The position numbers and the translations under genes are program-made. The notes under the pieces were generated by a model. That model did no database searches and was not told where the DNA came from. It worked only from the letters and a program-made list of their open reading frames with translations. A stretch of 64,000 bases of DNA from assembly GCF_006715085.1 (NCBI RefSeq), contig NZ_VFMM01000002.1, forward strand, positions 682,001 through 746,000, read 5' to 3'. Source of the stretch: Kribbella jejuensis (lineage in GTDB: Bacteria > Actinomycetota > Actinomycetes > Propionibacteriales > Kribbellaceae). This document shows, piece by piece, positions 3 through 48,065 of this stretch (position 1 is the first letter of the stretch; each line of letters begins with the position of its first letter).

Positions 3-443
3 ACGGAGATCCCGACCGACCTCTCGCAGGTGCCGGTGGACCCGGCGCACCCGGTCGTGGCTCCGGGGGCGTACCTGCTCGAGCTGATCCCGGTGCCGGT
101 CGAGGACGTCGACCGGGCGAAGGCGTTCTACACCGAGCAGGCCGGGTTCGTCTGCGACGTGGACATCACGCCCGCCGAAGGGGTGCGGATCGTGCAGCTC
201 ACGCCGCCCGGTTCGTACTGCTCGATCTCGCTGACGGCCGGGCTGCCGCAGATGCAGATGGAGCCGGGTTCGCAACGCGGCCTGCACCTGGTCGTGAAGG
301 ACATCGAGGCGGCCCGCGCCGAGCTGATCGGCCGCGGCGTCGAGGTCAGCGGCACCGAGGACCTCGGCGGCGTCTTCTACGCCTGGTTCGCCGACCCGGA
401 CGGCAACACCTGGGCCCTCCAACATATGCCGTGGCGGAAGTAA
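3..443 (+). CDS. VOC (glyoxalase/bleomycin-resistance) family protein, possibly 5'-partial
   Basis: The C-terminal part reads as one VOC domain: the first strand and helix (LELIPVPVEDVDRAKAFYTE) are followed by a closing FADPDGNTWALQ segment, which is typical of the betaalphabetabetabeta module of glyoxalase-like proteins. Such proteins bind a metal or small molecule; the substrate cannot be told. A GTG at 30 would give 137 residues, a normal single-domain length, but no Shine-Dalgarno precedes it and the frame stays open to the left edge, so the true start may lie outside the window. A 12-bp inverted repeat follows the stop and may terminate transcription before pruA. Confidence 0.75.
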   Translation, partial: TEIPTDLSQVPVDPAHPVVAPGAYLLELIPVPVEDVDRAKAFYTEQAGFVCDVDITPAEGVRIVQLTPPGSYCSISLTAGLPQMQMEPGSQRGLHLVVKDIEAARAELIGRGVEVSGTEDLGGVFYAWFADPDGNTWALQHMPWRK

Positions 444-471
444 TTCAGCTGCGTTCGTGGTTGACGGTGCT

Positions 472-498
472 GGCGTGGCACCATGCTGGTGTCACGCC
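472..498. promoter_or_regulatory. 27-bp near-perfect inverted repeat between the VOC gene and pruA
   Basis: GGCGTGGCACCA (472-483) and TGGTGTCACGCC (487-498) form a 12-bp stem with a 3-nt loop; the single mismatch would be a G-U pair in RNA. No T-tract follows, so it could be an intrinsic terminator of the upstream gene or an operator for pruA, whose start is 63 bp downstream. Confidence 0.45.
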
Positions 499-560
499 TG
501 GCCATCCGCACCGGGGGTGACGCCAGTCCGGTCCACCGCACGATCGAGGAGTCCTGCCGC

Positions 561-2189
561 ATGGATGCCGTCACCGCCGTACCGACGCCCGCCAACGAGC
601 CCGTGAAGGGTTATGCGCCCGGCTCGGCCGAGCGCGCGAGCCTGGAGGCGAAGCTCAAGGACTTCACCGCGGCCGGGTCGATCGACCTGACCTGCACGAT
701 CGGCGGCGAGCAGAAGCTGGGCGGCGGCGCGCCGATCGAGGTCGTCCAGCCGCACCGGCACGCGCACGTGCTGGGCACGCTGGGTAACGCCACCGAGGCG
801 GACGGTCGCGCCGCTGTGGACGCGGCGCTGGCCGCGGCTCCGGCGTGGCGCTCGCTGTCGTTCGACGACCGGGCCGCGATCTTCCTGAAGGCCGCCGACC
901 TGCTGGCCGGCCCGTGGCGGGACACGCTGAACGCCGCCACCATGCTCGGCCAGTCGAAGACGATCCAGCAGGCCGAGATCGACTCCGCCTGCGAGCTGAT
1001 CGACTTCCTCCGGTTCAACGTCGCGTTCGCGCGGCAGATCGTCAGCGACCAGCCGATCTCGTCACCGGGGGTCTGGAACCGGGTGGACTACCGGCCGCTC
1101 GAGGGCTTCGTGTACGCGATCACCCCGTTCAACTTCACCGCGATCGCCGGCAACCTGCCGACCGCGCCCGCGCTGATGGGCAACACCGTGGTGTGGAAGC
1201 CGTCGCCGACCCAGCAGTTCGCGGCGCACTGGACGATGCGGCTGCTCGAGGCCGCGGGCCTGCCGGCCGGTGTGATCAACCTGGTCACCGGTGACGGCAT
1301 CGACGTGTCGAAAGCGGCGCTGACCCACCCGGACCTGGCCGGTATCCACTTCACCGGCTCGACCAAGACGTTCCAGTCGCTGTGGAGCACGGTCGGCGCG
1401 AACATCGCGTCGTACAAGACCTACCCCCGGCTCGTCGGAGAGACCGGCGGCAAGGACTTCATCCTCGCGCATCCGTCGGCGGATCCGGCGGTGCTGAAGA
1501 CCGCGATGGTGCGCGGCGCGTTCGAGTACCAGGGGCAGAAGTGTTCGGCGGCGTCGCGGGCGTACGTGCCGCGCTCGGTGTGGGACGTGCTGAAGGACGA
1601 CCTCGTGGCGGAGACCGAGTCGCTGACGATGGGGGACGTCACCGACCTGTCGAACTTCATCGGTGCGGTGATCGACGACCGCGCGTTCGCCAAGCACAAG
1701 GCGGCGCTGGACCGGGCGCGTTCGGTCGACTCGGTCGAGGTTGTTGCCGGCGGCACCTATGACGACAGCGAGGGGTACTTCGTCCGCCCGACGCTGCTGG
1801 TCTCGTCCGATCCCACCGACGAGATCTTCACCACCGAGTACTTCGGCCCGATCCTCGGCGTGCACGTGTACGAGGACGCCGACTACGCGTCGGTGATGAA
1901 GGGGATGGAGCACTCCGCGCCGTACGGCCTGACCGGTGCGGTGATCGCACAGGACCGGCACGCGATCGCGGAGGCGGCCGAGTACCTGCGGTTCGCGGCC
2001 GGCAACTTCTACGTCAACGACAAGCCGACCGGTGCGGTCGTCGGGCAGCAGCCCTTCGGTGGCGCCCGCGCCTCCGGCACCAACGACAAGGCCGGCTCGA
2101 TGTGGAACCTGATCCGCTGGGCCTCCCCGCGTTCGATGAAGGAAACCTTCACCCCACCCACCGACTACCGCTACCCCCACCAGGGCTGA
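561..2189 (+). CDS. pruA: L-glutamate gamma-semialdehyde (1-pyrroline-5-carboxylate) dehydrogenase
   Basis: Oxidises glutamate semialdehyde/P5C to glutamate with NAD+, the second step of proline degradation. The N-terminal NEPVKGYAPGS signature is specific to the P5CDH (ALDH4-like) group. The aldehyde-dehydrogenase catalytic residues are visible: Glu294 in VGETGGKDF and the nucleophile Cys328 in GQKCSAASRAYVP. The ATG at 561 was chosen because GAGGAG lies just upstream and the family motif starts about 13 residues in; the frame is open further upstream to 483 but that sequence looks like leader. The product is 542 residues, the usual length. No proline dehydrogenase is adjacent. The NAD-glutamate dehydrogenase at 33843 would take the product on to 2-oxoglutarate. 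Confidence 0.95.
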   Translation: MDAVTAVPTPANEPVKGYAPGSAERASLEAKLKDFTAAGSIDLTCTIGGEQKLGGGAPIEVVQPHRHAHVLGTLGNATEADGRAAVDAALAAAPAWRSLSFDDRAAIFLKAADLLAGPWRDTLNAATMLGQSKTIQQAEIDSACELIDFLRFNVAFARQIVSDQPISSPGVWNRVDYRPLEGFVYAITPFNFTAIAGNLPTAPALMGNTVVWKPSPTQQFAAHWTMRLLEAAGLPAGVINLVTGDGIDVSKAALTHPDLAGIHFTGSTKTFQSLWSTVGANIASYKTYPRLVGETGGKDFILAHPSADPAVLKTAMVRGAFEYQGQKCSAASRAYVPRSVWDVLKDDLVAETESLTMGDVTDLSNFIGAVIDDRAFAKHKAALDRARSVDSVEVVAGGTYDDSEGYFVRPTLLVSSDPTDEIFTTEYFGPILGVHVYEDADYASVMKGMEHSAPYGLTGAVIAQDRHAIAEAAEYLRFAAGNFYVNDKPTGAVVGQQPFGGARASGTNDKAGSMWNLIRWASPRSMKETFTPPTDYRYPHQG

Positions 2190-2199
2190 GTTATCCGAA

Positions 2200-2235
2200 G
2201 GCGCCGAGCACAGACAACTACCTATGCTCGGCGCC
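2200..2235. terminator. Stem-loop after pruA
   Basis: GGCGCCGAGCA (2200-2210) and TGCTCGGCGCC (2225-2235) are perfect reverse complements separated by 14 nt, 11 bp after the pruA stop. There is no T-tract. The position between convergent genes suggests a terminator. Confidence 0.55.
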
Positions 2236-2271
2236 ATGCCGTCTGGCGACGAGCCGCTCCAGACGCTCGTG

Positions 2272-2475
2272 TTACGCGGTCAGGTGGATTGGCTGGGTGG
2301 GTGGGTCGACGAGGAGGGCGGAGCCGCAGGTGATGCAGATCCACTCGTCTGGTTCGTCTACGGGGTAGTCCGACGGTTCGACGCGCTCGAACGGTGTCAC
2401 GGTGGCGCAGAAAGCGCAGTACTGCTCGTTGTCCGTGACGACGAGTGCGCGCCTCTTTCGCAGGGAACTTCGCAT
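2272..2475 (-). CDS. Small zinc-ribbon protein of unknown function
   Basis: A 67-residue protein with two CxxC knuckles (YCAFC near residue 20 and ICITCG near residue 48), the pattern of a small zinc ribbon. The N-terminus is basic and the middle acidic. No catalytic domain is visible and the function is unknown. The start is ATG with CGGAGG about 12 nt upstream, but that ribosome binding site lies inside a hairpin (2486-2529). It follows the DUF2505 gene on the same strand with 86 bp between them. Confidence 0.7.
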   Translation of the reverse strand: MRSSLRKRRALVVTDNEQYCAFCATVTPFERVEPSDYPVDEPDEWICITCGSALLVDPPTQPIHLTA

Positions 2476-2485
2476 CAGAACGGGT

Positions 2486-2529
2486 CACCTCCGGTGCAAC
2501 GCTTCCTTCTCAGGTTGCCACCGGAGGTG
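2486..2529 (-). terminator. Hairpin between the DUF2505 gene and the zinc-ribbon gene, covering the latter's RBS
   Basis: CACCTCCGGTG (2486-2496) and CACCGGAGGTG (2519-2529) are perfect reverse complements; adjacent CAAC/GTTG bases extend the stem with one bulge. On the minus strand it lies about 33 nt after the DUF2505 stop, and its 3' arm contains the GGAGG that serves the zinc-ribbon gene. It may be a terminator, a translational lock, or both. Confidence 0.5.
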
Positions 2530-2561
2530 CGGCCGTCAGTGCAGCGACACGGCGATCAGTC

Positions 2562-3053
2562 CTACTTGCCGCTCCACTCGTGGCCGAGGTCGTACTCCTT
2601 CTGCAGGCCGGAACGGATCGCGTCCACCACCATCGGCTCCATCTTCTTGCCGATCAGCGGTACGGCGACCTTCACCTCGAGGTCGATCGCCTGGACGGTC
2701 TGAGCTCCGTCCGCCGCGATCCGCGCGGTGCCCTTCAGCGTGACCGGCGTGTTGCTGATCTCGCCGGCCACGTCCGCGGTCCGCGAGCCGTCCGCCGCCG
2801 GCGCGTGCCAGGTCTCGGTCTGTACGAGAGTCAGCGTGTCGCCGACGAACTTCTTCGCCATGTCCGGGATGTCGACGGCCTCCATCCGCCGGCTGACCCG
2901 GACCACGGTGTCGGCGCCGGACGTGCTGACCTTGACGTCGTACGACAGTGCCTTGGTCTTCTCGCAGGCTTGCTCACGGAAGGCGGTGTCCGTGACGATC
3001 GCGAACACTTCCTCGGGGGTGGCGTCGTACGACGCCGACATCTTCAGCTCCAT
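2562..3053 (-). CDS. DUF2505 family protein
   Basis: A 163-residue protein matching what I know of the actinobacterial DUF2505 family: it starts MELKMSASYDATPEEVFAIVTD, like a START/SRPBCC-type domain, with a C-terminal amphipathic helix ending in YDLGHEW. The fold suggests a lipid or hydrophobic-ligand binding pocket, but no function is established. There is no signal peptide or membrane segment. ATG start at 3053. Confidence 0.8.
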   Translation of the reverse strand: MELKMSASYDATPEEVFAIVTDTAFREQACEKTKALSYDVKVSTSGADTVVRVSRRMEAVDIPDMAKKFVGDTLTLVQTETWHAPAADGSRTADVAGEISNTPVTLKGTARIAADGAQTVQAIDLEVKVAVPLIGKKMEPMVVDAIRSGLQKEYDLGHEWSGK

Positions 3054-3091
3054 GCGGTCATCATGGCATCACCGAGCAGGCATCGGGCGCC

Positions 3092-4546
3092 TCACACCGT
3101 GTTGAGCAGGTCGACCACCGACTGCTGCCGGGCCGCGTCGAGCTTGTCGACGGGGCCGTACCAGCGCAGGCCGTACTGGTCCATCGGCGTCCGGTCGGCC
3201 GCGTACGCGCGATCGGCCTGCTTCTGCAGGTACGCCGTGTACGGGTGATCGGACAGTGCCGCGTTGAGCTTGCCGAGCCCGCGGACATGCGCGCCTTTGA
3301 ACGACGGCCCGTCGCCGCCGCAGTCGCCGTCCTCGCACGGTTCGCGCAGAATGCCGTCCGTGGTGTGCAGCGACGCCGCTGTCGTCGATGCGTCGGCCAG
3401 AACGCGCGCCGAGGTCAGGTACGCCGAGTTGTTCGTTGCCTTGAACAACTCCGTGAGCCCGCCGATCAGCACGCCCTGGTTGTACGTCCACGCGGTCTGC
3501 CCGTTGTTCTTGCAGGTGGACAGGTCGATGCCGTCGTTCACCAGGTGTGAGCCGTTGATCATCCCGGTCTGCTGGAACCAGGTCCAGCCGGCCTGCGCGC
3601 GTTGCAGGTACGTCGAATCGCCGGCCACCCGGGTGTGCAGCTGCGCGTTGAGCTGGATGTACAACGAGTTCGAGATCGCGTTCTTGTACGTCTTCGCCTC
3701 GCTCCACCAGACCCCGCCGCCGCAGGTGTTGTCCCAGTACGCCGCCATGTGGTCCGCGTCGGCCCGTGCGGTCTGCAGGTACCGCGCGTCGCCGGTCAGG
3801 TCGTACGCGGCGACCCACGCGAGTCCCCACCACCCGGTGTCGTCGATGTAGTCGTTGCGGAACTGGCCCTCGAACTTGTTCAGGTTCAGGTCGTACGTCT
3901 TCCCGATCGCGTACGTGTAGCTCTTCATCCCGCTGACGCGGATGTTGTCGATCAGCGCGTTCAACGCATTCGCCGAGTTCCACCAGCCGGTCGTGTCGAA
4001 CAGTCCGGTGGACAGGTTGTAGTCCTGCATCAGCGCCGTCGAGGCCGCCGTACGACGGTCCCACGCGTTCCAGGTCGTCCGCGCCCAGGGGGTGCAGGCG
4101 ACGTCGGTGCGGTCACCGGCCTTGCCACAGGCGCGGAGTGCGCCGACGCCGAGGTTGTTCCAGTCGTCGACGTTGTACATCAGCGTGCGCCAACCGCGTT
4201 GGCCGGTCGGGATCGCGGTGTTGCCGAGCCGGCTGCCGCCGGACCAGGTGCGGCCGCCGTCCATCGAGCGGTCCAGCCACACCTCGTCGCCGGGGTTGCC
4301 GTTCTCGATCGAGGCCCAGCCCATCGCGTCGTCGTCGTCGAAGTGCAGCGTGATCGTGCGGCCGAACAGCGTCGTGGAGACCGGGGTCCGGTCCTTCGGG
4401 GCGAGCGCCGGGTCGCGGGCGTCGCAGTACTTGTTGCAGATCGTTGCCTGGGCGGTCATGGTCACCTCCGGCGTGGCCGGCGCCGGTGCGGGCGCGCCGA
4501 GGGGAGCGATCAGCAGGGCAAGGCTGGAAACGATTCCAACGGACAT
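3092..4546 (-). CDS. Secreted glycoside hydrolase family 76 (alpha-1,6-mannanase-like)
   Basis: An exported enzyme of 484 residues. An N-terminal hydrophobic segment ending in an Ala/Pro stretch serves as signal peptide. Residues about 30-120 form an extra N-terminal region, followed by an all-alpha (alpha/alpha)6 barrel of GH76 type. The adjacent catalytic aspartates of GH76 are seen in [21 protein letters not shown] and NQGVLIGGL are further typical barrel segments. Known members cut alpha-1,6-mannan backbones of fungal or mycobacterial glycans. The ATG at 4546 has AGGGAG upstream; a GTG immediately before it would add one residue. A near-palindrome TGGAAACGATTCCA (4525-4538) overlaps codons 3-7. 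Confidence 0.88.
4525..4538. promoter_or_regulatory. LacI-type operator candidate inside the GH76 start region
   Basis: TGGAA-ACGA-TTCCA is a 14-bp near-palindrome with a central CG, the layout of LacI-family sites. It lies within the first codons of the secreted glycosidase gene. Evidence is symmetry and position only. Confidence 0.25.
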
Positions 4547-26743: not shown

Positions 26744-29700
26744 ATGTTCCGATCGATCAAACCTGTCAGCCTTGCCGCCTGCGGCGCCCTGATCGGCGCC
26801 GCCCTGTCCGCGCTCGCCCCGAGCTTCGCCCTGGCCGCGGCGTCCGCCGCGTCCGGTGGTGTCGGCGCGACGTTGCCGTACGTCGAAGTCCAGGCCGAGA
26901 ACTCCGCCACCAACGGAACCCTCATCGGGCCGAGTGCCGCGTACAACACGCTCGCCGCCGAGGCGTCGTACCGCAAAGCCGTGACATTGCAGGGCAGCGG
27001 GAAGTACGTCGAGTTCACGACACCGGTGGCGACGAACTCGATCGTGTTCCGCTACAGCATCCCCGACACCGGGTCCGGCTCGGTGTACACGCCGCAGCTG
27101 TCGTTCTACGTCAACGGTTCGAAGCAGTCGAACTTCACGCTGACCAACGCCTACAGCTGGTACTACGGCGGCTATCCGTTCACGAACTCGCCGGGCAGCA
27201 ACCCGCACCACTTCTACGACGAGGTGCACCGGCTGTTCCCGACGACGTACCCGGCCGGTACGAAGTTCCGGTTGCAGGTCGACGCCGAGGACACCGCCGC
27301 GTCGTACACGATCGACTTCGCCGACTTCGAGAACGTCCCGGCCGCGTTGCCGCAGCCGGCCGGTTCGGTGTCGGTGACCAGCCAGGGCGCCGATCCGACC
27401 GGCGTCGCGGACTCCACCAACGCGTTCAACGCGGCGATGGGCGCGGCCGGCGCCGGCGGAACGGTGTGGATCCCGGAGGGAACGTTCAAGATCCCCGGAC
27501 ACCTGATCCTGAACAACATCACGATCAAGGGCGCCGGCATGTGGCGGTCGACGATCGTTGGCGCGGCCCCCGGTTTCTACGGCAACTATGCGCCGAACGC
27601 CAGCAGCGGCGTACACCTCGCGGACTTCGCGATCTTCGGTGACGTGCAGGAGCGCAACGACGGCGCCCAGGTGAACGGCATCGGCGGCGCGCTGAACAAC
27701 TCGACCGTGGACCGGGTGTGGATCGAGCACGAGAAGGTCGGCGCCTGGATGGACGGGCCTTTCACCAATCTGGTGTTCAACGGCATGCGGATCCGCAACG
27801 TGACCGCGGACGGCATCAACTTCCACGACGGCGTGACGAACTCCAAGGTGACGAACAGCGACCTGCGCAACCTGGGCGACGACGGTCTGGCGACCTGGTC
27901 GGAGCAGAACGCCGACGCGAACGACTCGTTCGACCACAACACAGTTCAGTACCCCATCCTCGCGAACGGGATCGCGATCTACGGCGGTCACGACAACTTC
28001 GTCACCGACAACCGGGTGATCGACGCCGGCCTCACCCAGGGCGGCGGCATCCACGTCGCGCAACGGTTCAACTCGACCACGCTCGGCCGGACCGACGTTC
28101 TGCGGAACACGATCATCCGCTCCGGCAGTCTGGACCCGAACTGGCAGTTCGGCGTCGGCGCGCTGTGGTTCGACGCCCGCGACGGTGCGATGTCCGGCTT
28201 GACGAATGTCGACAACCTGCTGATCCAGCAGAGCCCGTACGAGGCGATCCAGTTCGTCTCCGGCTCGAACATCAGCAACGTCAAGATCAACAATGCGACG
28301 ATCCAGAACACCGGCACGTGGGTGGTTCAGGAGCAGGTCGGCGGCTCGGCGACGATCACCAACAGCACGGCCACCGGGACGCAGGCGCCCGGGCCGATCT
28401 ACAGCTGTGGCGTCGGTTTCACGCTCACCGACGGCGGCGGCAACTCGGGCATCTTCGCGCCTCCGCAGTGCCAGAACATCACCGCGCCGGCGTTCCCGCC
28501 GTACCTGCCGGACAACGGTTCGCAGCTCTCGATCAGCCCAAGTGCCTTGAGCTTCGGCTCGGTGGCGACCGGTACGTCGAGCGTGGTGCAGGCGGTCACC
28601 GTGACGAACAGCGGTACGGCGGCGGCGCCGGTCAGTTCGGTCGCGACCAGCGGTGACTTCACGCAGACGAACAATTGCGGCAGCAGCGTTGCGGCCGGCG
28701 CGTCATGCACGGTGAACGTGACGTTCACGCCCGCGGCGGCCGGCAGCCGTACCGGGAACCTGACCGTCACCGCGTCCGGGGTGGTGAACACCGTCCCGCT
28801 GTCCGGTACGGGCGTCGCGCCGGGTCCGATCCTGAACGCGAACCCGGGCAGCCTGTCCTTCCCCGACACGTCCGTGGGCAGCGCGTCCGCGACCCAGACC
28901 GTCATCGTGACGAACTCCGGTACGTCGTCGGCGACCGTCTCCGGGGTCGCGGCGACGGGTGACTTCACCCAGACGAACAACTGCGGAACCGTCGCAGTCG
29001 GCGCGTCCTGCACGGTCACGGTCACGTTCCGGCCGACCGCATCCGGCGCGCGGACCGGCAGCATCACGGTGACCAGCAACGCGAACAACAGCCCGGCCTC
29101 GATTTCCTTGACCGGGAACGGAATCGGATCCGACACCAACCTCGCTCTCGGGAAGCCGGCCACCGCCAGCAGCCAGGTCAACGGCACCCAGACGGCGGCG
29201 ACCGCGACCGACGGCGATGCGAATACCTACTGGGAAAGCGCGAACAACGCTTTCCCGCAATGGCTGCAGGTCGACCTCGGTACCGCCCGGAGCGTCGGCA
29301 AGGTCACCCTGAAGCTCCCGCCGAGCTCTGCCTGGGGAACACGCACCCAGACGCTCTCTGTGCAGACCAGCACGGACGGAAACGCATTCGCCACGCCGGT
29401 CGCGTCCGCGTCGTACACGTTCACGTCGCCCACCAACGTCGTGAACATCCCCGTACCGACGACGACCGCGCGCTACGTGCGCGTCAACATCACCGCCAAC
29501 ACCGGCTGGCCGGCCGGCCAGGTCTCCGAGTTCGAGGTCTACCCGAGCAGCAGCGGCGGCACCACCCAGCCCACCAACCTGTCCACCGGAAAGCCGACCA
29601 CCGAGTCCAGTCACAACGACGTCTATCAGTCCGGCAACGCCACCGACGGCAACCAGTCGACCTACTGGGAAAGCGCGAACAACGCCTTCCCGCAATGGCT

Positions 29701-29983
29701 CCAGGTCGACCTGGGCGCCCCCGCCACCTCCGGCCGAGTGGTTCTTCAGCTCCCTGCGACCTGGGGATCCCGCACCCAGACCCTGTCACTCCTAGGCTCC
29801 ACCAACGGCACAACCTTCAACGCCATAGTTGCCTCCGCCACCTACACCTTTGCCCCAAGCAACAACAACACCGTCACCATCACCTTCCCGGCAACCACCC
29901 AGCGCTACTTCCGCCTCAACCTCACCTCCAACACCGGCTGGCCCGCAGCCCAACTCTCGGAATTCCAAATCTGGTCCTCCTGA
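26744..29983 (+). CDS. Secreted multidomain glycoside hydrolase, GH87-like (mycodextranase/alpha-1,3-glucanase type)
   Basis: A 1079-residue exported enzyme. Domains in order: signal peptide (1 to about 33); N-terminal beta-sandwich (about 40-200, starting PYVEVQAENS); right-handed beta-helix (about 205-590) beginning VTSQGADPTGVADSTNAFNA, with recurrent N-x-T/I rungs and Asp-rich GDDGLATWSEQNADAND; two Ig-like choice-of-anchor D/ASH repeats (about 595-690 and 700-790); and two discoidin/F5-8C (CBM32-like) modules (about 800-930 and 945-1079). GH87 enzymes cut alpha-1,3-glucan or nigeran of fungal walls. The family call rests on the overall architecture, so another beta-helix hydrolase is possible. 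The two discoidin modules share nearly identical DNA. Confidence 0.8.
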   Translation: MFRSIKPVSLAACGALIGAALSALAPSFALAAASAASGGVGATLPYVEVQAENSATNGTLIGPSAAYNTLAAEASYRKAVTLQGSGKYVEFTTPVATNSIVFRYSIPDTGSGSVYTPQLSFYVNGSKQSNFTLTNAYSWYYGGYPFTNSPGSNPHHFYDEVHRLFPTTYPAGTKFRLQVDAEDTAASYTIDFADFENVPAALPQPAGSVSVTSQGADPTGVADSTNAFNAAMGAAGAGGTVWIPEGTFKIPGHLILNNITIKGAGMWRSTIVGAAPGFYGNYAPNASSGVHLADFAIFGDVQERNDGAQVNGIGGALNNSTVDRVWIEHEKVGAWMDGPFTNLVFNGMRIRNVTADGINFHDGVTNSKVTNSDLRNLGDDGLATWSEQNADANDSFDHNTVQYPILANGIAIYGGHDNFVTDNRVIDAGLTQGGGIHVAQRFNSTTLGRTDVLRNTIIRSGSLDPNWQFGVGALWFDARDGAMSGLTNVDNLLIQQSPYEAIQFVSGSNISNVKINNATIQNTGTWVVQEQVGGSATITNSTATGTQAPGPIYSCGVGFTLTDGGGNSGIFAPPQCQNITAPAFPPYLPDNGSQLSISPSALSFGSVATGTSSVVQAVTVTNSGTAAAPVSSVATSGDFTQTNNCGSSVAAGASCTVNVTFTPAAAGSRTGNLTVTASGVVNTVPLSGTGVAPGPILNANPGSLSFPDTSVGSASATQTVIVTNSGTSSATVSGVAATGDFTQTNNCGTVAVGASCTVTVTFRPTASGARTGSITVTSNANNSPASISLTGNGIGSDTNLALGKPATASSQVNGTQTAATATDGDANTYWESANNAFPQWLQVDLGTARSVGKVTLKLPPSSAWGTRTQTLSVQTSTDGNAFATPVASASYTFTSPTNVVNIPVPTTTARYVRVNITANTGWPAGQVSEFEVYPSSSGGTTQPTNLSTGKPTTESSHNDVYQSGNATDGNQSTYWESANNAFPQWLQVDLGAPATSGRVVLQLPATWGSRTQTLSLLGSTNGTTFNAIVASATYTFAPSNNNTVTITFPATTQRYFRLNLTSNTGWPAAQLSEFQIWSS
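29228..29715 (+). repeat. Duplicated discoidin-module DNA within the GH87-like gene
   Basis: The 53-nt segment 29228-29280 recurs at 29663-29715 with only three differences. Both encode YWESANNAFPQWLQVDLG. The rest of the two modules is more diverged. Confidence 0.8.
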
Positions 29984-41528: not shown

Positions 41529-42692
41529 ATGGTGGACGACGCACAGCTGGACGTACTGACGATCGGGCGGATCGGGGTCGACCTGTACCCGCTGCAGCTC
41601 GGCACGCATCTGGAAGATGTCACCTCGTTCGGGAAGTTCCTCGGCGGCAGCGCGACCAACGTCGCCGTCGCCGCGGCCCGGCACGGCCGCAGGTCCGCGG
41701 TGATCAGCCGGACCGGCAACGACCCGTTCGGCACCTTCATCCACCGCACCCTCGGTGAACTCGGCGTCGACGACCGCTTCGTCACCCCGGTGGACGGCCT
41801 GCCGACCCCGATCACGTTCTGCGAGATCTTCCCGCCGGACAACTTCCCGCTGTACTTCTACCGCTTCCCCAAGGCCCCCGACCTCGTCATCAACCCGTCC
41901 GAACTGGACCTCACCGCCATCCGCAACGCCCGCATCTACTGGTCCACCGTCACCGGCCTCTCCGCCGAACCCTCCCGCTCCGCCCACTTCACCGCCTGGC
42001 AAGCCCGCGGCCACGTAACCTCCACACCCCCCACCGCCACCACCGGCATCCCCGCCCCCTCGACACCCTCCGATCCCCCACCCGCCGCCCCGCCCGCCCT
42101 GCCCGGCCCGTCCGGAGCTGACTTCGCCGCCGGGGCACCCGTCGGCCAGCCACCCGCCGGCGCAGGCGTGGCAGGTGCGGCCTCTTCCGGCGCACCGTCT
42201 TCTGGCGTGCCGTTCGACCCGGGTCCCCAGTTCACCGTGCTCGACCTGGACTACCGGCCGATGTTCTGGGCGGATCCGAGTGAAGCGCATGAGCAGGTAT
42301 CACGGGCGCTGGAGTACTGCTCCGTTGCCGTCGGCAACCGTGAGGAGTGCGAGGTCGCCGTCGGCGAGACCGACCCGGACAAGGCCGCCCAGGCACTCCT
42401 CGACCGCGGCCTCGAACTGGCCGTCGTCAAACAAGGCCCCCGCGGCACCCTCGCCCGCACCCGCGACGAGCGCGTCGAAGTACCGCCGTACCCGGTCGAG
42501 GTCGTCAACGGCCTCGGCGCCGGCGACGGCTTCGGCGGCGCCCTCTGCCACGGCCTCCTCGCCGGCTGGCCCCTCGAAAAGATTATCCGCTTCGCGAACA
42601 CCGCCGGCGCGATCGTCGCCTCCCGCCTCGAATGCTCCACCGCCATGCCCACGACCGCCGAAGTCCTCTCCCACCTGCGAGCCGAAGCATGA
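41529..42692 (+). CDS. iolC: 5-dehydro-2-deoxygluconokinase with internal low-complexity insertion
   Basis: PfkB-family kinase of the inositol pathway phosphorylating 5-dehydro-2-deoxy-D-gluconate. N-terminal VLTIGRIGVDLYPLQLG and GGSATNVAVAAARHG, and C-terminal anion hole and catalytic Asp in VNGLGAGDGFGGALCHGL, are intact. Residues about 163-234 (42015-42230), between TAWQARGH and FTVLDLDYRPMFW, are an extra stretch rich in Pro, Ala, Gly and Ser not found in normal IolC, raising the length to 387 from the usual 310-330. The reading frame is unbroken. It is probably a disordered surface loop. Overlaps the aldolase gene by 4 bp. Confidence 0.9.
   Translation: MVDDAQLDVLTIGRIGVDLYPLQLGTHLEDVTSFGKFLGGSATNVAVAAARHGRRSAVISRTGNDPFGTFIHRTLGELGVDDRFVTPVDGLPTPITFCEIFPPDNFPLYFYRFPKAPDLVINPSELDLTAIRNARIYWSTVTGLSAEPSRSAHFTAWQARGHVTSTPPTATTGIPAPSTPSDPPPAAPPALPGPSGADFAAGAPVGQPPAGAGVAGAASSGAPSSGVPFDPGPQFTVLDLDYRPMFWADPSEAHEQVSRALEYCSVAVGNREECEVAVGETDPDKAAQALLDRGLELAVVKQGPRGTLARTRDERVEVPPYPVEVVNGLGAGDGFGGALCHGLLAGWPLEKIIRFANTAGAIVASRLECSTAMPTTAEVLSHLRAEA
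42015..42230 (+). repeat. Low-complexity C-rich insertion inside iolC
   Basis: About 216 bp in frame, encoding a Pro/Ala/Gly/Ser-rich segment that interrupts the conserved kinase fold. Cytosine is strongly enriched on the coding strand, as in the first part of the neighbouring aldolase extension. Confidence 0.75.
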
Positions 42693-45600
42693 CCCCCCAC
42701 GACGAAGACCAGTACTCCGAGGACGCCCGCCCCCTCCCGATCCGCCCCCGCCCCACCGAAGCCCCGGACGCAACCATCCAAACCCCCGCCCCCAACGACC
42801 CCACCATCCAAACCCCCGGCCCGAACGACCCCACCGCCCAGGCCTCGCGCTCGCCGGCCTCCAACGACCCAACGATCCGTTTCTCCCACCCATCCGGATC
42901 GAATGATCCAACGCTCGCATTCTCCCGCCCAACGGCGCTCGACAATCCGACCGGCTCCTCACGCCCAACGGCGCCCGAGAATGCGACCGGCTCCTCACGC
43001 CCGACGGTGCCCGAGGATGCGACCGGCTCCCCACGCCCAACGGCGCCCGACGATCCCGCCCTCCCCACGCCCGCGGCAGCCACCCCCCGCCCGCCACAAG
43101 ACCCCGCCTCGCAAGCCGCCACCTGGTGGGTAACACCGTCCCCAACAACCCCACCTGCCCCCACCCAGTCCCCAAACGACCGCATGCTCCACGGCCGCAC
43201 GCCGAATGCCCCAACCCCCCGCGGCACGGCCCCGACCAACCCAGCGCCCGGCGGTACGCCCCGAAGCGACCTGGCGCCCGGTGGTACGGCCCCGAGCAAC
43301 CCGGCGGCCGGCCGTACGGGCCCGAACGACCCACCGGGCGGAGGTACGACGCCGAGCAACGCGGAGGCCGGTGGTACGGCCCCGAGCGACCTGGCGGCCG
43401 GTGGTATGGCCACGAACGACCTAGCGGGCGGCCGTATGACACCGAGCAACGCGGCGGCCGATGGTATGGCCCGGACCCACCTGGCGGCCGGTGGTACAGC
43501 CCCGAAGGACCCGGCGACCGGTGGTACGACGCCAAGCGACCCACCGGCTCGCAGTACAGCCGCGGGCACTCCGACGGGCTCACCCCAGCATCGACAGGCA
43601 CCGTCCGCGCCGACCCACGCCTCCGGCCCGACCGATCCAACAGTGGTAGCGCGCCGTCCGCAGAACACGGATGCGCCAACCGCCGGCAACGACCCCCGAA
43701 CCGTCGTCGGCGGTGAACCGACCGGCCGGACCAACCCGATAGGTGCAATCGGCTCACCCGAACACCCCGCCCGCGGCGGGGACGCCACCGACCGCAGCCC
43801 GGCCTCGAACGACCCGACGGTGGTAGCGCACCGCCCCCACGACCTGAGCGCAGCCACGTACGCCGAACAGAACGACCCGACCGTGATCGGCCGCCACCCT
43901 GGAACCCTCCATGTACCAGGTGCCGACGACATCACAGTCATCTCGGACCCGAACGATCCCACCCTTGCCGCACGCCGACCGGCTGCCCCGTCACCCGGCG
44001 CCCGCATCACCGCCGCACACCGATCCGACGTATCGGAGCCCGACGATCCCACCATGGCAACACCCCGTACGGACGTCCCGCGGCCGGATGCCCACGCGCT
44101 CGCAGCCCGCCAGGGCGACGTACCAGAACCCAACACCCGCGGCGCTGCAACGGAACCAGCGAACGTACCTGCTGGAGCCGACTCACACGGAGTTGCTCCA
44201 GGGCGAGCCGACCTAGCTGCTGAGGCCGGCGCGCGCAGAGCTGCACCGGAGCGAGCGGGCGTACCTGCTGGAGCCGGCGCACACGGAGATGCTCCGGAGC
44301 GAGCTGACCGGCTTGGTGGGGCGGACGCCCGTAGAGCTGTAACGGAGCGAGCTGACCTAGTTGCTGGGGCCGATGCCCGCAGAGGTGCACCGGAGCGACC
44401 TGGCGGGGCTGGCGCCCGTGGAGCTGCAGTGGGAGCAGACGTATCTAGTGGGGCTGACGCCCGTCGAGATGCAGAGGCGCGAGCTGACGTACCTGGGGCA
44501 GATGACCCGGCGGTTGTGGCGCGGCGGGGTGATGTGGCTGGGTCGGATGACGTCACGGTGATCGGGGATCCGACCGATGTGAACCTGGGGGCGAACGAGC
44601 CGACGGTTGTAGTACGTGGGGGCGACGTACCTGGGCCTGATGATGCGACGGTACTCATGAACACTTCTTCGTCCGCGAATGCCGACGGTCAGACGACCGT
44701 GATTGCACACCTGAACCTTCCCGCCGAGCAGACGGCAGGTACGCAGAACGCCGACGTCCCTCAGGCTCCGCCCGGCCACCAGCTGACCGGTCAGACGCTG
44801 CGTGGGGCCCAACAAGCGACGCTCTCGCCCCGTAAGCCATCCGTTCAACGTGCAGCCGATCAGGCGACGCCCGATGCAGCGCGGCCCGAGACGGAGCGAT
44901 CCGGCGCGGAGGAGGCTGCCGCCCAGCAGGCTCGTGCTGCGCAGGCTCGCGCAGAACAGCCTGCGGAGGACGCCTACGGGACGCGGCAAGCCGAGGTAGC
45001 GGAAACGGACCCAGCGCAGGCCGAGGCGACGCAAGCCGAGCTGACGGGAACCGTGGCCATGGAGGCCGAGCCGACGGGGGCCGAGCCGACGGGGGCCGAG
45101 CCGACGGGGGCTGAAGCGATGAGGGCTGAGACGACACAGCCTCAGGTGACGCAAGCTGAGCCGACGGGGGCCGAGCTGACCGGGGCCGAGCTGACCGGGG
45201 CCGAGCTGGTGGGGGCCGAGCCGACAGGGGCCGAGCCGACAGGGGCCGAGCCGACGGGGGGTGAGGCGGCGCAGGCTGGGCCGACGTGGGCTGGGGGCGA
45301 GGAGGTGCCGGCCGAGCGGGTGCGGGGTCAGGTGCCGCCGGAGGACGGCTGGGGTGATCAGAGTCGGGACGGGCAGATGCGGGCCGATGGTTTACCGGCG
45401 GAGCAGGCGAACCTTCAGCGGCCGCGGGTGGAGCGTGCTGTCGTTGGAGAGGGCCGGGTTGAGCAGGCGTTGTCGGCCGAGCTGCCGGCGGCGCAGGTGG
45501 CGGATGGTGGTGCGGTTGAGGGAGAGGCGCTTGACGGGTCTCCCCTTGACGGTGCACTGCGTGCGGACGGTTTGGGCGGTGCGGGCGCGAGTGGTTTGAA

Positions 45601-47119
45601 TCCAGCTGGTCAGTTCACGTCGGGGGTCGGAGATGTGGCCGAGTCGGCTGGCGGTGCCGGTATGTCGGGTGCGGCGGCTGATGGAGTCGTGGCTGGTGGC
45701 GGGGCTGCGGTTGGTGGCGGGGCGGCTGGTGGAGTGGTCGGTGGTCGCGGAGCTGCGGCTGGTGTGGCTTCGGTTGCGGCTGGGGGTGTTGTTGCTGGCT
45801 TGGCGGGGGGCGTGGCTGGTGGTTTGGCGGACGACGATCGGCATGCGGAGTGGGGTTCTGGGGGCGAGGAGGCCGGGGATGATGGGTTGGCGTCGACTCA
45901 GGTCTATCCGGCGGTTGGTGGTGCGGACGAGTCAGATCGGCACGAGTCTGAGTCGTTGAACGGGGCCGGCACGGATGCCCGGGTGGGTGAGGGTGCCGGT
46001 GTGGAGAACCCTTACGTGGACGACGCTGCCGTAGGTGCGGTCGGTGGGGCTGCGGCTGTAGGTGCGGTCGACGAGGTGCCTGTGCATGCGGGAACTGATG
46101 TTGCCTCGGGTGCTGGCGCAGCTGGTGAGGTCGGGGATGCGGGGCTTGTTGGTCGTGCCGGTGATGACACTGCGGTAGCTCGTGCGGCTGGGGTTGGGGG
46201 ACGTGGGCGTGGGGTGTTGTTGGAAGGGGTTCGGGGACGGTTGGGGGAGTTGACTGAGGTTCGGGTTCGGTTTCCGGAGCGGGTTGTTGAGGGGTGGTTG
46301 GGGCGGCGGACGCGGGCGTTGGTGGGGGATGATGGGCGGCTTTTGATTGTGGCTGCGGATCATCCGGCTCGTGGGGCGTTGGGGGTGCGTGGTGATCGGA
46401 TGGCGATGGGTAGCCGGTTGGAGTTGGTTGCGCGGTTGGTGGTTGCGTTGCAGCGGCCGGGGGTGGACGGAGTGCTGGCTACTCCTGATGTGCTCGAGGA
46501 TCTGCTGTTGCTCGGGGCGTTGGAGGGCAAGGTCGTCATCGGGTCGATGAACCGGGGTGGGCTGCAAGGGGCGGCGTTCGAGTTGGACGATCGGTTCACG
46601 GCGTACCGGACGGCGGACGAGATCGCGGCGCGGCGGCTTGATGGCGGGAAGATGCTGACCCGCATCGACCTTGCCGATCCGGGGACCGTGGCGACGCTCG
46701 AGAGCAGTGCCGCGGCCGTGACCGGACTGGCTGAGCACAAGCTGATGGCGATGGTCGAACCGTTCTGGACGACCCGGGGTGCGGACGGGCGGGTGACGAA
46801 CGTGCTCGACCCCGACTCGGTGATCAAGTCGATCCAGATCGCCTCCGGACTCGGTGCGACCAGCGCGTACACGTGGTTGAAGCTTCCGGTCGTCGACGAA
46901 CTCGAACGGGTGATGGAGGCAACGACCCTCCCGACGTTGCTGCTCGGTGGCGACCCGACGGCGGCACCGGAAGCGACGTACGCCTCGTGGGGCAAGGCGC
47001 TCGAGCTGCCGTCTGTCCGTGGACTGGTGGTCGGACGGGCGCTGCTGTTCCCGCCGGACGGTGACGTGGCTGCAGCGGTTGATCATGCGGCCGCACTGGT
47101 GCATGGCAGCAACGGATGA
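42689..47119 (+). CDS. Inositol-pathway aldolase (Cgl0158-family barrel) with giant low-complexity N-terminal extension
   Basis: An unbroken 1476-codon frame whose ATG overlaps the iolC stop (ATGA). The last 290 or so residues (from about 46241) are a normal Cgl0158-type (beta/alpha)8 aldolase: LLIVAADHPARGALGV, VDGVLATPDVLEDLLLLGAL, IGSMNRGGLQGAAFELDDRF, LDGGKMLTRIDL, YTWLKLPVVDE. In iol operons this protein takes the place of IolJ, splitting the phosphorylated sugar acid. The first 1184 or so residues have no recognised fold: Pro/Thr/Asn-rich with recurring NDPT, a decapeptide repeat, Asp/Arg/Ala-rich units, Ala/Glu/Thr pentapeptides, then Gly/Ala/Val-rich sequence. Internal GTG/TTG codons at 46214-46250, with purine-rich sequence upstream, could also start a normal-sized aldolase. 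Whether the extension is translated is open. Confidence 0.8.
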   Translation: MTPHDEDQYSEDARPLPIRPRPTEAPDATIQTPAPNDPTIQTPGPNDPTAQASRSPASNDPTIRFSHPSGSNDPTLAFSRPTALDNPTGSSRPTAPENATGSSRPTVPEDATGSPRPTAPDDPALPTPAAATPRPPQDPASQAATWWVTPSPTTPPAPTQSPNDRMLHGRTPNAPTPRGTAPTNPAPGGTPRSDLAPGGTAPSNPAAGRTGPNDPPGGGTTPSNAEAGGTAPSDLAAGGMATNDLAGGRMTPSNAAADGMARTHLAAGGTAPKDPATGGTTPSDPPARSTAAGTPTGSPQHRQAPSAPTHASGPTDPTVVARRPQNTDAPTAGNDPRTVVGGEPTGRTNPIGAIGSPEHPARGGDATDRSPASNDPTVVAHRPHDLSAATYAEQNDPTVIGRHPGTLHVPGADDITVISDPNDPTLAARRPAAPSPGARITAAHRSDVSEPDDPTMATPRTDVPRPDAHALAARQGDVPEPNTRGAATEPANVPAGADSHGVAPGRADLAAEAGARRAAPERAGVPAGAGAHGDAPERADRLGGADARRAVTERADLVAGADARRGAPERPGGAGARGAAVGADVSSGADARRDAEARADVPGADDPAVVARRGDVAGSDDVTVIGDPTDVNLGANEPTVVVRGGDVPGPDDATVLMNTSSSANADGQTTVIAHLNLPAEQTAGTQNADVPQAPPGHQLTGQTLRGAQQATLSPRKPSVQRAADQATPDAARPETERSGAEEAAAQQARAAQARAEQPAEDAYGTRQAEVAETDPAQAEATQAELTGTVAMEAEPTGAEPTGAEPTGAEAMRAETTQPQVTQAEPTGAELTGAELTGAELVGAEPTGAEPTGAEPTGGEAAQAGPTWAGGEEVPAERVRGQVPPEDGWGDQSRDGQMRADGLPAEQANLQRPRVERAVVGEGRVEQALSAELPAAQVADGGAVEGEALDGSPLDGALRADGLGGAGASGLNPAGQFTSGVGDVAESAGGAGMSGAAADGVVAGGGAAVGGGAAGGVVGGRGAAAGVASVAAGGVVAGLAGGVAGGLADDDRHAEWGSGGEEAGDDGLASTQVYPAVGGADESDRHESESLNGAGTDARVGEGAGVENPYVDDAAVGAVGGAAAVGAVDEVPVHAGTDVASGAGAAGEVGDAGLVGRAGDDTAVARAAGVGGRGRGVLLEGVRGRLGELTEVRVRFPERVVEGWLGRRTRALVGDDGRLLIVAADHPARGALGVRGDRMAMGSRLELVARLVVALQRPGVDGVLATPDVLEDLLLLGALEGKVVIGSMNRGGLQGAAFELDDRFTAYRTADEIAARRLDGGKMLTRIDLADPGTVATLESSAAAVTGLAEHKLMAMVEPFWTTRGADGRVTNVLDPDSVIKSIQIASGLGATSAYTWLKLPVVDELERVMEATTLPTLLLGGDPTAAPEATYASWGKALELPSVRGLVVGRALLFPPDGDVAAAVDHAAALVHGSNG
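43226..43555 (+). repeat. Eleven tandem 30-bp units encoding a decapeptide repeat
   Basis: In the aldolase extension, 11 consecutive units of exactly 10 codons read like TAPSNPAAGR, TTPSNAEAGG and TAPSDLAAGG (consensus T/M-x-P-S-N/D-x-A-x-G-G). Units differ at several positions, so the array is not freshly expanded. Confidence 0.9.
44200..44560 (+). repeat. Imperfect repeats of about 18-20 residues rich in Ala, Asp and Arg
   Basis: Protein segments such as APERADRLGGADARRAVTER recur several times with substitutions and small length changes (GADARRGAPERP, GADARRDAEARAD). The period is irregular, unlike the decapeptide block. Confidence 0.6.
45065..45269 (+). repeat. Tandem 15-bp repeats encoding AEPTG/AELTG pentapeptides
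   Basis: The unit GCCGAGCCGACGGGG or close variants occurs about three times at the start and about seven times at the end of this stretch, giving AEPTG and AELTG pentapeptides separated by a less regular Met/Gln/Thr segment. Confidence 0.85.
46190..46214 (+). other. G-quadruplex motif at the start of the aldolase core
   Basis: Four G-tracts (46190-46193, 46196-46200, 46205-46207, 46211-46214) with loops of 2, 4 and 3 nt on the coding strand meet the standard G3+N1-7 rule. The motif sits where the low-complexity extension ends and the conserved aldolase begins, within a wider G/T-rich coding strand. Confidence 0.7.
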
Positions 47120-47165: not shown

Positions 47166-48065
47166 ATGACTGAATGGGTTCGGCCCGCCGGTACGGCGGC
47201 GGACGGCGGGTACGACGTGGTGGTACGGCCCGGCGAGCCGCAGTGGCATCACAGCGGCCTGCTGGTCCGGACGCTGTTGCCCGGGCAGTCGGTGGAGATC
47301 GACACCGGGGACTGTGAGTACATCGTCCTGCCGTTGAAGGGTTCGGCGGAGGTGATCGTGGACGGTGAGGCCGTACCGCTCGGTGGTCGGGCCGACGTGT
47401 TCGCGGGTGCGACGGATCTCGCCTACGTACCGCGGAACTCGACCTTCGCGGTGGTGAGCGCCGGCGGCGCGCGGATCGCGTTCCCGCACGCGAAGGCCGC
47501 CGCGGACCATCCGTTCCGGCGGCTCGGCCCCGAAGACGTCGAGACCGAGCTGCGCGGCGCCGGGGTCGCCTCCCGTCAGGTTCGTAACTTCGGTACGCCG
47601 GGCGTCCTCGACGCGGACTCGATCATCGCCTGCGAGGTGATCACGCCGGCCGGGAACTGGTCGTCCTACCCGCCGCACAAGCACGACGAGCACCGGCCCG
47701 GGAAGGAGAGCGAGCTCGAGGAGATCTACTACTTCGAGCTGCAGCTGTCCGACGACGTACCGGAAGATGTCAAGGGCAACGACCCGATCGGCTACCAGCG
47801 GGTCTACGGTACGCCGGAACGTCCGATCGACGTCCTCGCCGAGGTGCACAGCGGCGACGTGGTGCTGGTCCCGCATGGTTGGCACGGGCCGGCGATGGCA
47901 CCGCCCGGCTACGACATGTACTACCTGAACGTGATGGCCGGCCCTGGCAAGGAACGCCAGTGGCTGATCACCGACGACCCGCAGCACGCCTGGGTCCGTG
48001 AGTTGTGGAACTCCCAACATATCGATCCGCGCCTGCCTTTCGGAGAACAAGGAGCTGAGTCATGA
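47166..48065 (+). CDS. iolB: 5-deoxy-glucuronate isomerase
   Basis: A 299-residue bicupin converting 5-deoxy-glucuronate to 5-dehydro-2-deoxygluconate, the substrate of IolC. Family features: CEYIVLPLKGSAEVIVDGE in the first cupin, and SSYPPHKHDEH with metal-binding histidines plus LEEIYYFEL and VVLVPHGWHG in the second. AAGGA precedes the ATG. It follows the aldolase by 46 bp and overlaps iolD by 4 bp. Confidence 0.95.
   Translation: MTEWVRPAGTAADGGYDVVVRPGEPQWHHSGLLVRTLLPGQSVEIDTGDCEYIVLPLKGSAEVIVDGEAVPLGGRADVFAGATDLAYVPRNSTFAVVSAGGARIAFPHAKAAADHPFRRLGPEDVETELRGAGVASRQVRNFGTPGVLDADSIIACEVITPAGNWSSYPPHKHDEHRPGKESELEEIYYFELQLSDDVPEDVKGNDPIGYQRVYGTPERPIDVLAEVHSGDVVLVPHGWHGPAMAPPGYDMYYLNVMAGPGKERQWLITDDPQHAWVRELWNSQHIDPRLPFGEQGAES

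Follow-up and report, generated by a model that had tools for sequence, protein, structure and literature searches.

A repeat-rich N-terminal tail, predicted to be disordered, precedes a Cgl0159-like barrel in the inositol operon of Kribbella

Cgl0159-like proteins are (beta/alpha)8 barrels of full Pfam length (PF22649, PDB 3fok) that lie beside iolC at nearly all of the related loci that we examined. In the open-licence literature we found no paper on Cgl0159 by name; those aldolases that PMC9007349 names as characterised are IolJ and DUF2090 fusions. Two other described systems invite comparison. RNase E is a bacterial enzyme with a large disordered, non-catalytic region that holds short conserved segments (PMC4435900), and GarA and OdhI are actinobacterial metabolic proteins whose ETTS phosphorylation motif places a threonine, with an acidic residue nearby, in an N-terminal stretch (PMC12321487). 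Here we describe a gene in a 64,000-nucleotide stretch of the Kribbella jejuensis genome (assembly GCF_006715085.1, contig NZ_VFMM01000002.1, positions 682,001 to 746,000; hereafter the window, from whose first letter all positions are counted) that encodes such a barrel behind an N-terminal tail of about 1180 residues. By comparison, no more than 22 residues lie ahead of the barrel in non-Kribbella relatives (64 of 64 measured; 15 of the 80 named loci compared are Kribbella or the locus L085 discussed below, and 64 of the remaining 65 could be measured). The enzyme itself is an ordinary Cgl0159 relative, and the novelty is its tail, which makes it a new variant. The tail is almost certainly translated and disordered, and on balance we favour the idea that it acts as a multivalent binding tail, a function that we infer. 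Judging from listings and the beginnings of abstracts, we recognised no earlier description of the Kribbella tail in the open-licence literature, where we also found no paper on disordered growth in Actinobacteria.

A long open frame ahead of a Cgl0159-like barrel

The tailed gene (42689..47119, + strand, as are all features given below) is an unbroken frame of 1476 codons that runs from an ATG at 42689 to a TGA at 47117-47119, and its ATG shares an ATGA overlap with the stop codon of iolC. The last ~296 codons (46229..47116) form the Cgl0159-type barrel. PF22649 (Cgl0159) covers residues 1216-1468 (46334-47092) with an E value of 1.5e-124 and is the sole Pfam match at E <= 0.01; the score of 414.7 bits compares with a curated cut-off of 27, and the whole profile (1-251 of 251) is aligned. 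The gene also has the context of a Cgl0159-like gene, overlapping iolC and being followed by iolB, and PDB 3fok (Cgl0159), an entry with ten chains, aligns to residues 1188-1473. Operon and fold together point to a putative aldolase activity on an inositol-pathway phosphate. A first-pass annotation of the window had reported a 1476-codon frame coupled to iolC with the barrel at its end, and translation, the ATGA overlap and the PF22649 match all confirm this.

The tail itself (residues 1-1180, 42689..46228) matched no Pfam family at E <= 0.01; the first-pass annotation had seen no recognisable fold in it. The tail frame contains no stop codon over this interval, whereas the two alternative forward frames contain 30 and 32 and the opposite strand 11, 14 and 7. 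Among simulated Markov sequences, none of 500 first-order ones was open (22.6 stops on average and never fewer than 11), and neither was any of 500 second-order ones (20.7 on average, never fewer than 9). The 1180 residues include no cysteine, 2 lysine, 13 aromatic, 158 acidic and 82 basic residues (lysine plus arginine), and GC at third codon positions is 0.687 in the tail vs 0.854-0.876 in iolB, iolC and iolD. Note that GC and AT skew change strongly along 42000-46500, with C and A enriched early on and G and T towards the end, in parallel with a shift of the filler from Pro/Thr-rich to Gly/Ala-rich.

The extension is built of several repeat types, as had been claimed: to the 10- and 5-codon periods can be added arrays of 12 and 16 codons, and every tandem array in the window that scores >100 falls within 42773-45764. 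In order along the gene there are 12-codon repeats (42922..43056), 10-codon repeats of period 30 (43226..43542), 16-codon repeats (44136..44402), 5-codon repeats of period 15 with the unit AE[PL]TG (45019..45293), and Gly/Ala/Val-rich repeats (45673..45830). When the tail was compared by BLASTP with the 21 other tails that carry the threonine motif described below (DPTV tails), the Gly/Ala/Val-rich repeats and most of the length of the 10-codon repeats were unmatched. Three islands were matched: a conserved N-terminal island (residues 1-100, 42689..42988; matches in 9 to 15 of the 21 tails), motif island A (residues 313-475, 43625..44113; 3 to 9 tails), with motif threonine codons beginning at 43640, 43817, 43880, 43934 and 44051, and motif island B (residues 601-720, 44489..44848; 8 to 12 tails), with motif threonine codons beginning at 44555, 44603 and 44648. 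The N-terminus is matched in all 15 other tails of clade II, and in clade I the likeness, judged by eye, is an RPIPIRRP-like stretch in G021, G009 and G003. Stretches between and after the islands find matches in 0 to 3 of the 21 relatives, and residues 901-1180 in none; the tandem repeats that separate the islands are lineage-specific. Across the 22 DPTV tails, 104 of 107 tandem arrays have a period divisible by three. The pattern looks like in-frame expansion around a kept skeleton, and growth of the tail by in-frame tandem duplication is supported by these comparisons. As the alignments show, what has been kept is the N-terminal peptide and several motif copies, mostly [ND]-D-P-T-V-[VI]; length and filler have not.

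Structure prediction supports the disorder that the first-pass annotation had suggested, there as part of a hypothetical condensate-forming or scaffolding tail. In an AlphaFold2 model of the K. sindirgiensis orthologue (33 aligned relatives) there is no secondary structure up to residue 233, and the mean predicted local distance difference test score (pLDDT) is <=55 in every ten-residue block over that length, compared with mostly >80 in the barrel. Residues 740-1180 of the window protein, modelled alone in a single-sequence run that is weak evidence, gave a mean pLDDT of 42.5 and two adjoining helices in the first 52 residues. The 5-codon repeats have weak phmmer matches, with E values of 1.4e-6 at best, to pentapeptide-repeat proteins and to the designed protein beta1 (PDB 4yfo and others). 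However, the tail has no Pfam pentapeptide match, many of its repeats contain proline, and no strands were predicted for residues 740-1180 in that single-sequence run; a pentapeptide-repeat beta-helix is not supported.

Translation, selection and history of the tail

The comparison covers 38 related rows, drawn from 37 Kribbella genomes (that of the window and 36 others; a 38th, G058, lies outside the tail comparison) and from L085. In 35 of the genomes iolC is in view upstream, and G015 and G022 end at contig edges, which with L085 gives 36 rows with iolC in view. The gap between the iolC stop and the barrel ranges from 14 to 3536 base pairs (bp) in these rows, and in 31 of the 36 the frame begins at a start codon that shares bases with the iolC stop and stays open as far as the barrel (the exceptions are G008, G016, G025, G027 and L085).

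We aligned tail DNA, without reference to protein, in nine disjoint pairs hand-chosen among near relatives (7441 aligned bases in frame, 331 out of frame). Gap lengths were multiples of three in 60 of 85 cases, and the difference rates at codon positions 1, 2 and 3 were 0.265, 0.273 and 0.392. Codons with a single difference were synonymous in 443 of 876 cases in frame (vs 206 of 945 and 175 of 878 when the two alternative frames were read), and the strongest coding signal came from the pair G015/G022 (66 synonymous vs 27 not). (In the 40 pairs with the highest barrel identity, the remoter ones have numerous gaps whose length is not a multiple of three, as expected where alignment fails.) An open frame alone could stem from the barrel downstream; the synonymous excess, in contrast, argues for selection on the residues of the tail, and it is mild. 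It is the DNA-only test that carries this argument, because the protein-guided ratios of nonsynonymous to synonymous change (dN/dS), from 13 hand-chosen pairs, are biased downwards by the alignment. Together with the in-frame gaps, the islands and the periods divisible by three, the excess supports the proposal in the first-pass annotation that there has been both selection on, and expansion within, a translated sequence. Note that within a pair the tail often shows two- to threefold more synonymous difference than the barrel next to it (0.343 vs 0.128 in G023/G005), which is not so in G021/G009.

Translation from the ATG coupled to the iolC stop is strongly supported by these comparisons. The first-pass annotation had offered an internal aldolase start near 46241 as an alternative; on such an account the 3.5 kb before the barrel would in practice be untranslated, with initiation near 46214-46250. 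There is a GTG at 46214, and TTG codons occur before and in the first barrel helix, at whose leucines they are common. However, the tail has a coding signal and begins with a conserved peptide, and in G016, where the frame is uncoupled from iolC, a GTG behind GGGAGG, 115 bp past the iolC stop, precedes that same peptide. Nor is there a shared start codon near the barrel: the preceding 30 codons contain no ATG, GTG or TTG in 3 of 22 tailed rows and have some at scattered places in the other 19. An internal start is not supported and is very improbable as the gene's normal start; rare initiation near the barrel is conceivable.

The length series across the genus, like the threonine motif, goes beyond what the first-pass annotation had claimed. 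The tail measures 246 residues in K. sindirgiensis and 514 in K. soli. A tree of 43 rows was built from IolC plus barrel. The deepest Kribbella lineage in it, G029, has a gap of 14 bp, and the sister metagenome-assembled genome L086 one of 11 bp; a group of four (support 84/56) has gaps of 14-74 bp. In the best tree the 22 DPTV-tailed rows group together, weakly supported (72/64) and with a single change of state, and the DPTV-type tail probably arose once, an origin that is weakly supported. Tails of any kind longer than 35 residues require three changes of state. Because of these changes, and because tails in the remaining clade of 11 are short or unrelated and motif-free, unrelated filler seems to have entered the site behind the coupled start on more than one occasion. 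Both G012 and G032 also contain another, more distant iolC-aldolase pair that lacks such a tail. Among the relatives compared here the tail type is found only in Kribbella. (L085, NZ_JAAGLV010000002.1, is recorded as Streptomyces sp. SID13031; the tree places its IolC and barrel within Kribbella, and it is probably a misnamed Kribbella.)

The repeated threonine motif and its possible role

The pattern [DE]-x-T-[VIM]-[VIMAFL], chosen after reading the sequences and met mostly as N/D-D-P-T-V-V/I, occurs in all 22 tails of the DPTV group, with 1 to 9 copies in each compared with shuffle means of 0.03-0.41, and in none of the 16 other rows. Over 121 sites the commonest neighbours are P at -6, G at -5, P or A at -4, N or D at -3, P at -1 (72%), V at +1, V, I or A at +2, A at +3 and R at +5; note that D or E at -2 and the residue classes at +1 and +2 are fixed by the search pattern itself. 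In alignments of 13 chosen pairs that share genomes, motif threonines were retained at 108 of 130 positions, compared with 328 of 636 for other threonines and 5278 of 9496 for all residues; because of the shared genomes, the p value of this comparison is too small. In the window genome there are 15 coding-type sites for DPTV[VIM] vs 3 for a control pattern; three of the 15 are in the tailed gene, and the other 12 each lie at a separate place. We found no motif-bearing arrays outside the tailed gene in this genome or the genus with a search that was insensitive, recovering the tailed gene in only 6 of 22 tailed genomes, and in which four marginal outside matches were inspected.

We lean towards the motif having been selected as a binding site. 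The product is very probably one long protein, made from the ATG coupled to the iolC stop, with an aldolase-type barrel behind a disordered tail that grew between start codon and barrel by in-frame tandem duplication. The tail would act as a flexible, multivalent tether, each of its motifs being a candidate docking site for a partner and its filler setting the reach. An oligomeric barrel would display many copies of the tail; if the ten chains of 3fok represent a decamer, each particle would carry dozens of motifs. Barrel function appears to be independent of the tail, which would be dispensable because tailless relatives exist. As in RNase E, short conserved segments would sit in a disordered region of a bacterial enzyme; the RNase E region, however, is C-terminal, belongs to a different enzyme and has known partners, whereas the partner of the tail is putative.

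The motif threonine might be a phosphorylation site for a PknA/PknB-type kinase, with an FHA domain as its reader, a guess that we consider doubtful. The window genome encodes 7 FHA and 14 kinase domains. Compared with the ETTS motif of GarA and OdhI, the motif of the tail differs, is present in many copies and sits on an enzyme, and its phosphorylation is hypothetical. Still less probable is an extended version in which the tail is a scaffold, multivalent and controlled by threonine phosphorylation, that brings inositol-breakdown enzymes, or an FHA partner, together around the oligomeric aldolase, with an insert in IolC (see below) taking part in the longest-tailed lineages and repeat number tuning valence and reach between species.

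Several observations weigh against a binding role or its phosphorylated form. Within a single clade tails measure between 129 and 1180 residues, in some Kribbella a mere 6 to 26 residues precede the barrel, and the single motif copy of G034 is inside its shuffle range. The dN/dS values are 0.14-0.47 in the tail vs 0.01-0.10 in the barrel, coding signal is slight or absent in the G024/G004 and G006/G035 pairs of the motif-free clade, and motif conservation may stem partly from shared ancestry and alignment anchoring. Agreement with the PknA preference is partial: the depletion logo from M. tuberculosis shows acidic residues at -1 and -3 to -6, Pro at -1 and +2, Leu/Val at +3 and Lys/Arg at +4 (PMC7164672), and the tail motif has Pro at -1 in 72%, Asp at -3 in 36% (Asn in 48%), Val at +3 in 21% and Arg at +4 in 24% of sites, with Pro at +2 not among the residues seen. 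Finally, among the 21 FHA and kinase frames searched in the window genome (two of them, L184 and L197, cut by locus ends), the motif occurs in none of the 7 FHA-protein frames and, as single copies without an array, in 4 of the 14 kinase frames.

Operon context and competing explanations

In order, the operon comprises iolG-like and iolE-like genes, iolC, the tailed gene, iolB and iolD, followed by genes for a sugar ABC transporter, a second dehydrogenase and an aldehyde dehydrogenase. The gene 5' of the tailed gene is iolC (5-dehydro-2-deoxygluconokinase; 41529..42692; PF00294, TIGR04382), and iolB (47166..48065; PF04962, TIGR04378) lies 3' of it. In an alignment of 40 IolC rows the window protein (G000) has a Pro/Ala/Gly-rich low-complexity insert (42012..42233) that makes it ~70 residues longer than most relatives. 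There are 79 extra residues at this site in G013, 28 in G014, 4 in G019 and 5 in G003; most Kribbella have none. The four clade II carriers rank 1, 2, 3 and 5 of 16 in tail length, uncorrected for kinship, an association that could reflect a shared mutational push or a shared role. (Elsewhere in the window, 26744-29983 encodes a 1079-residue protein with alpha-1,3-glucanase, Ig-like and F5/8 type C domains.)

The principal competitor to a binding tail is tolerated, non-adaptive expansion, in which repeat slippage, in a gene rich in GC, lengthens an insertion-tolerant N-terminus with in-frame filler, translation of the barrel from the coupled start keeps the frame open, and the motif copies reflect ancestry and repeat duplication. 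The great range of tail lengths, the tailless sisters, the unrelated motif-free tails of another Kribbella clade and the low third-position GC all fit this account, as do the low-complexity IolC inserts of G000, G013 and G014 (slight in G019 and G003) and the apparent use by G008 and G025 of a start close to the barrel instead of the coupled one. It accounts less well for the synonymous excess within the tail, the conserved islands, the presence of the motif in every DPTV row and the greater retention of motif threonines than of other threonines. We regard such expansion as a real possibility that falls somewhat short of an even chance.

Family 2 encapsulin shells use disordered cargo domains, and the window genome contains two PF19307 (SrpI-like) genes, so that the tail could in principle load the aldolase into a shell. 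However, PF19307 finds no match in 14 of 16 DPTV-tailed clade II genomes, and two such genes are present in G029, where 6 residues take the place of a tail. We rejected a cargo-loading domain, whose chance we put as negligible, since the shell gene is absent from most tailed genomes. (The two PF19307 genes lie side by side at G000:C2:1028444-1032778, and 15 of 38 Kribbella genomes contain a pair of this kind.)

A multivalent binding tail thus remains the reading that we favour. One gene at one locus provides a natural series of 38 rows, in which the same barrel is preceded by anything between a few and 1180 residues and the tailless sisters and the tailless second copy of G012 serve as built-in controls. 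With this length series one can ask directly whether such a tail, disordered, fast-growing and attached to a bacterial metabolic enzyme, works as an array of binding sites or is simply filler.

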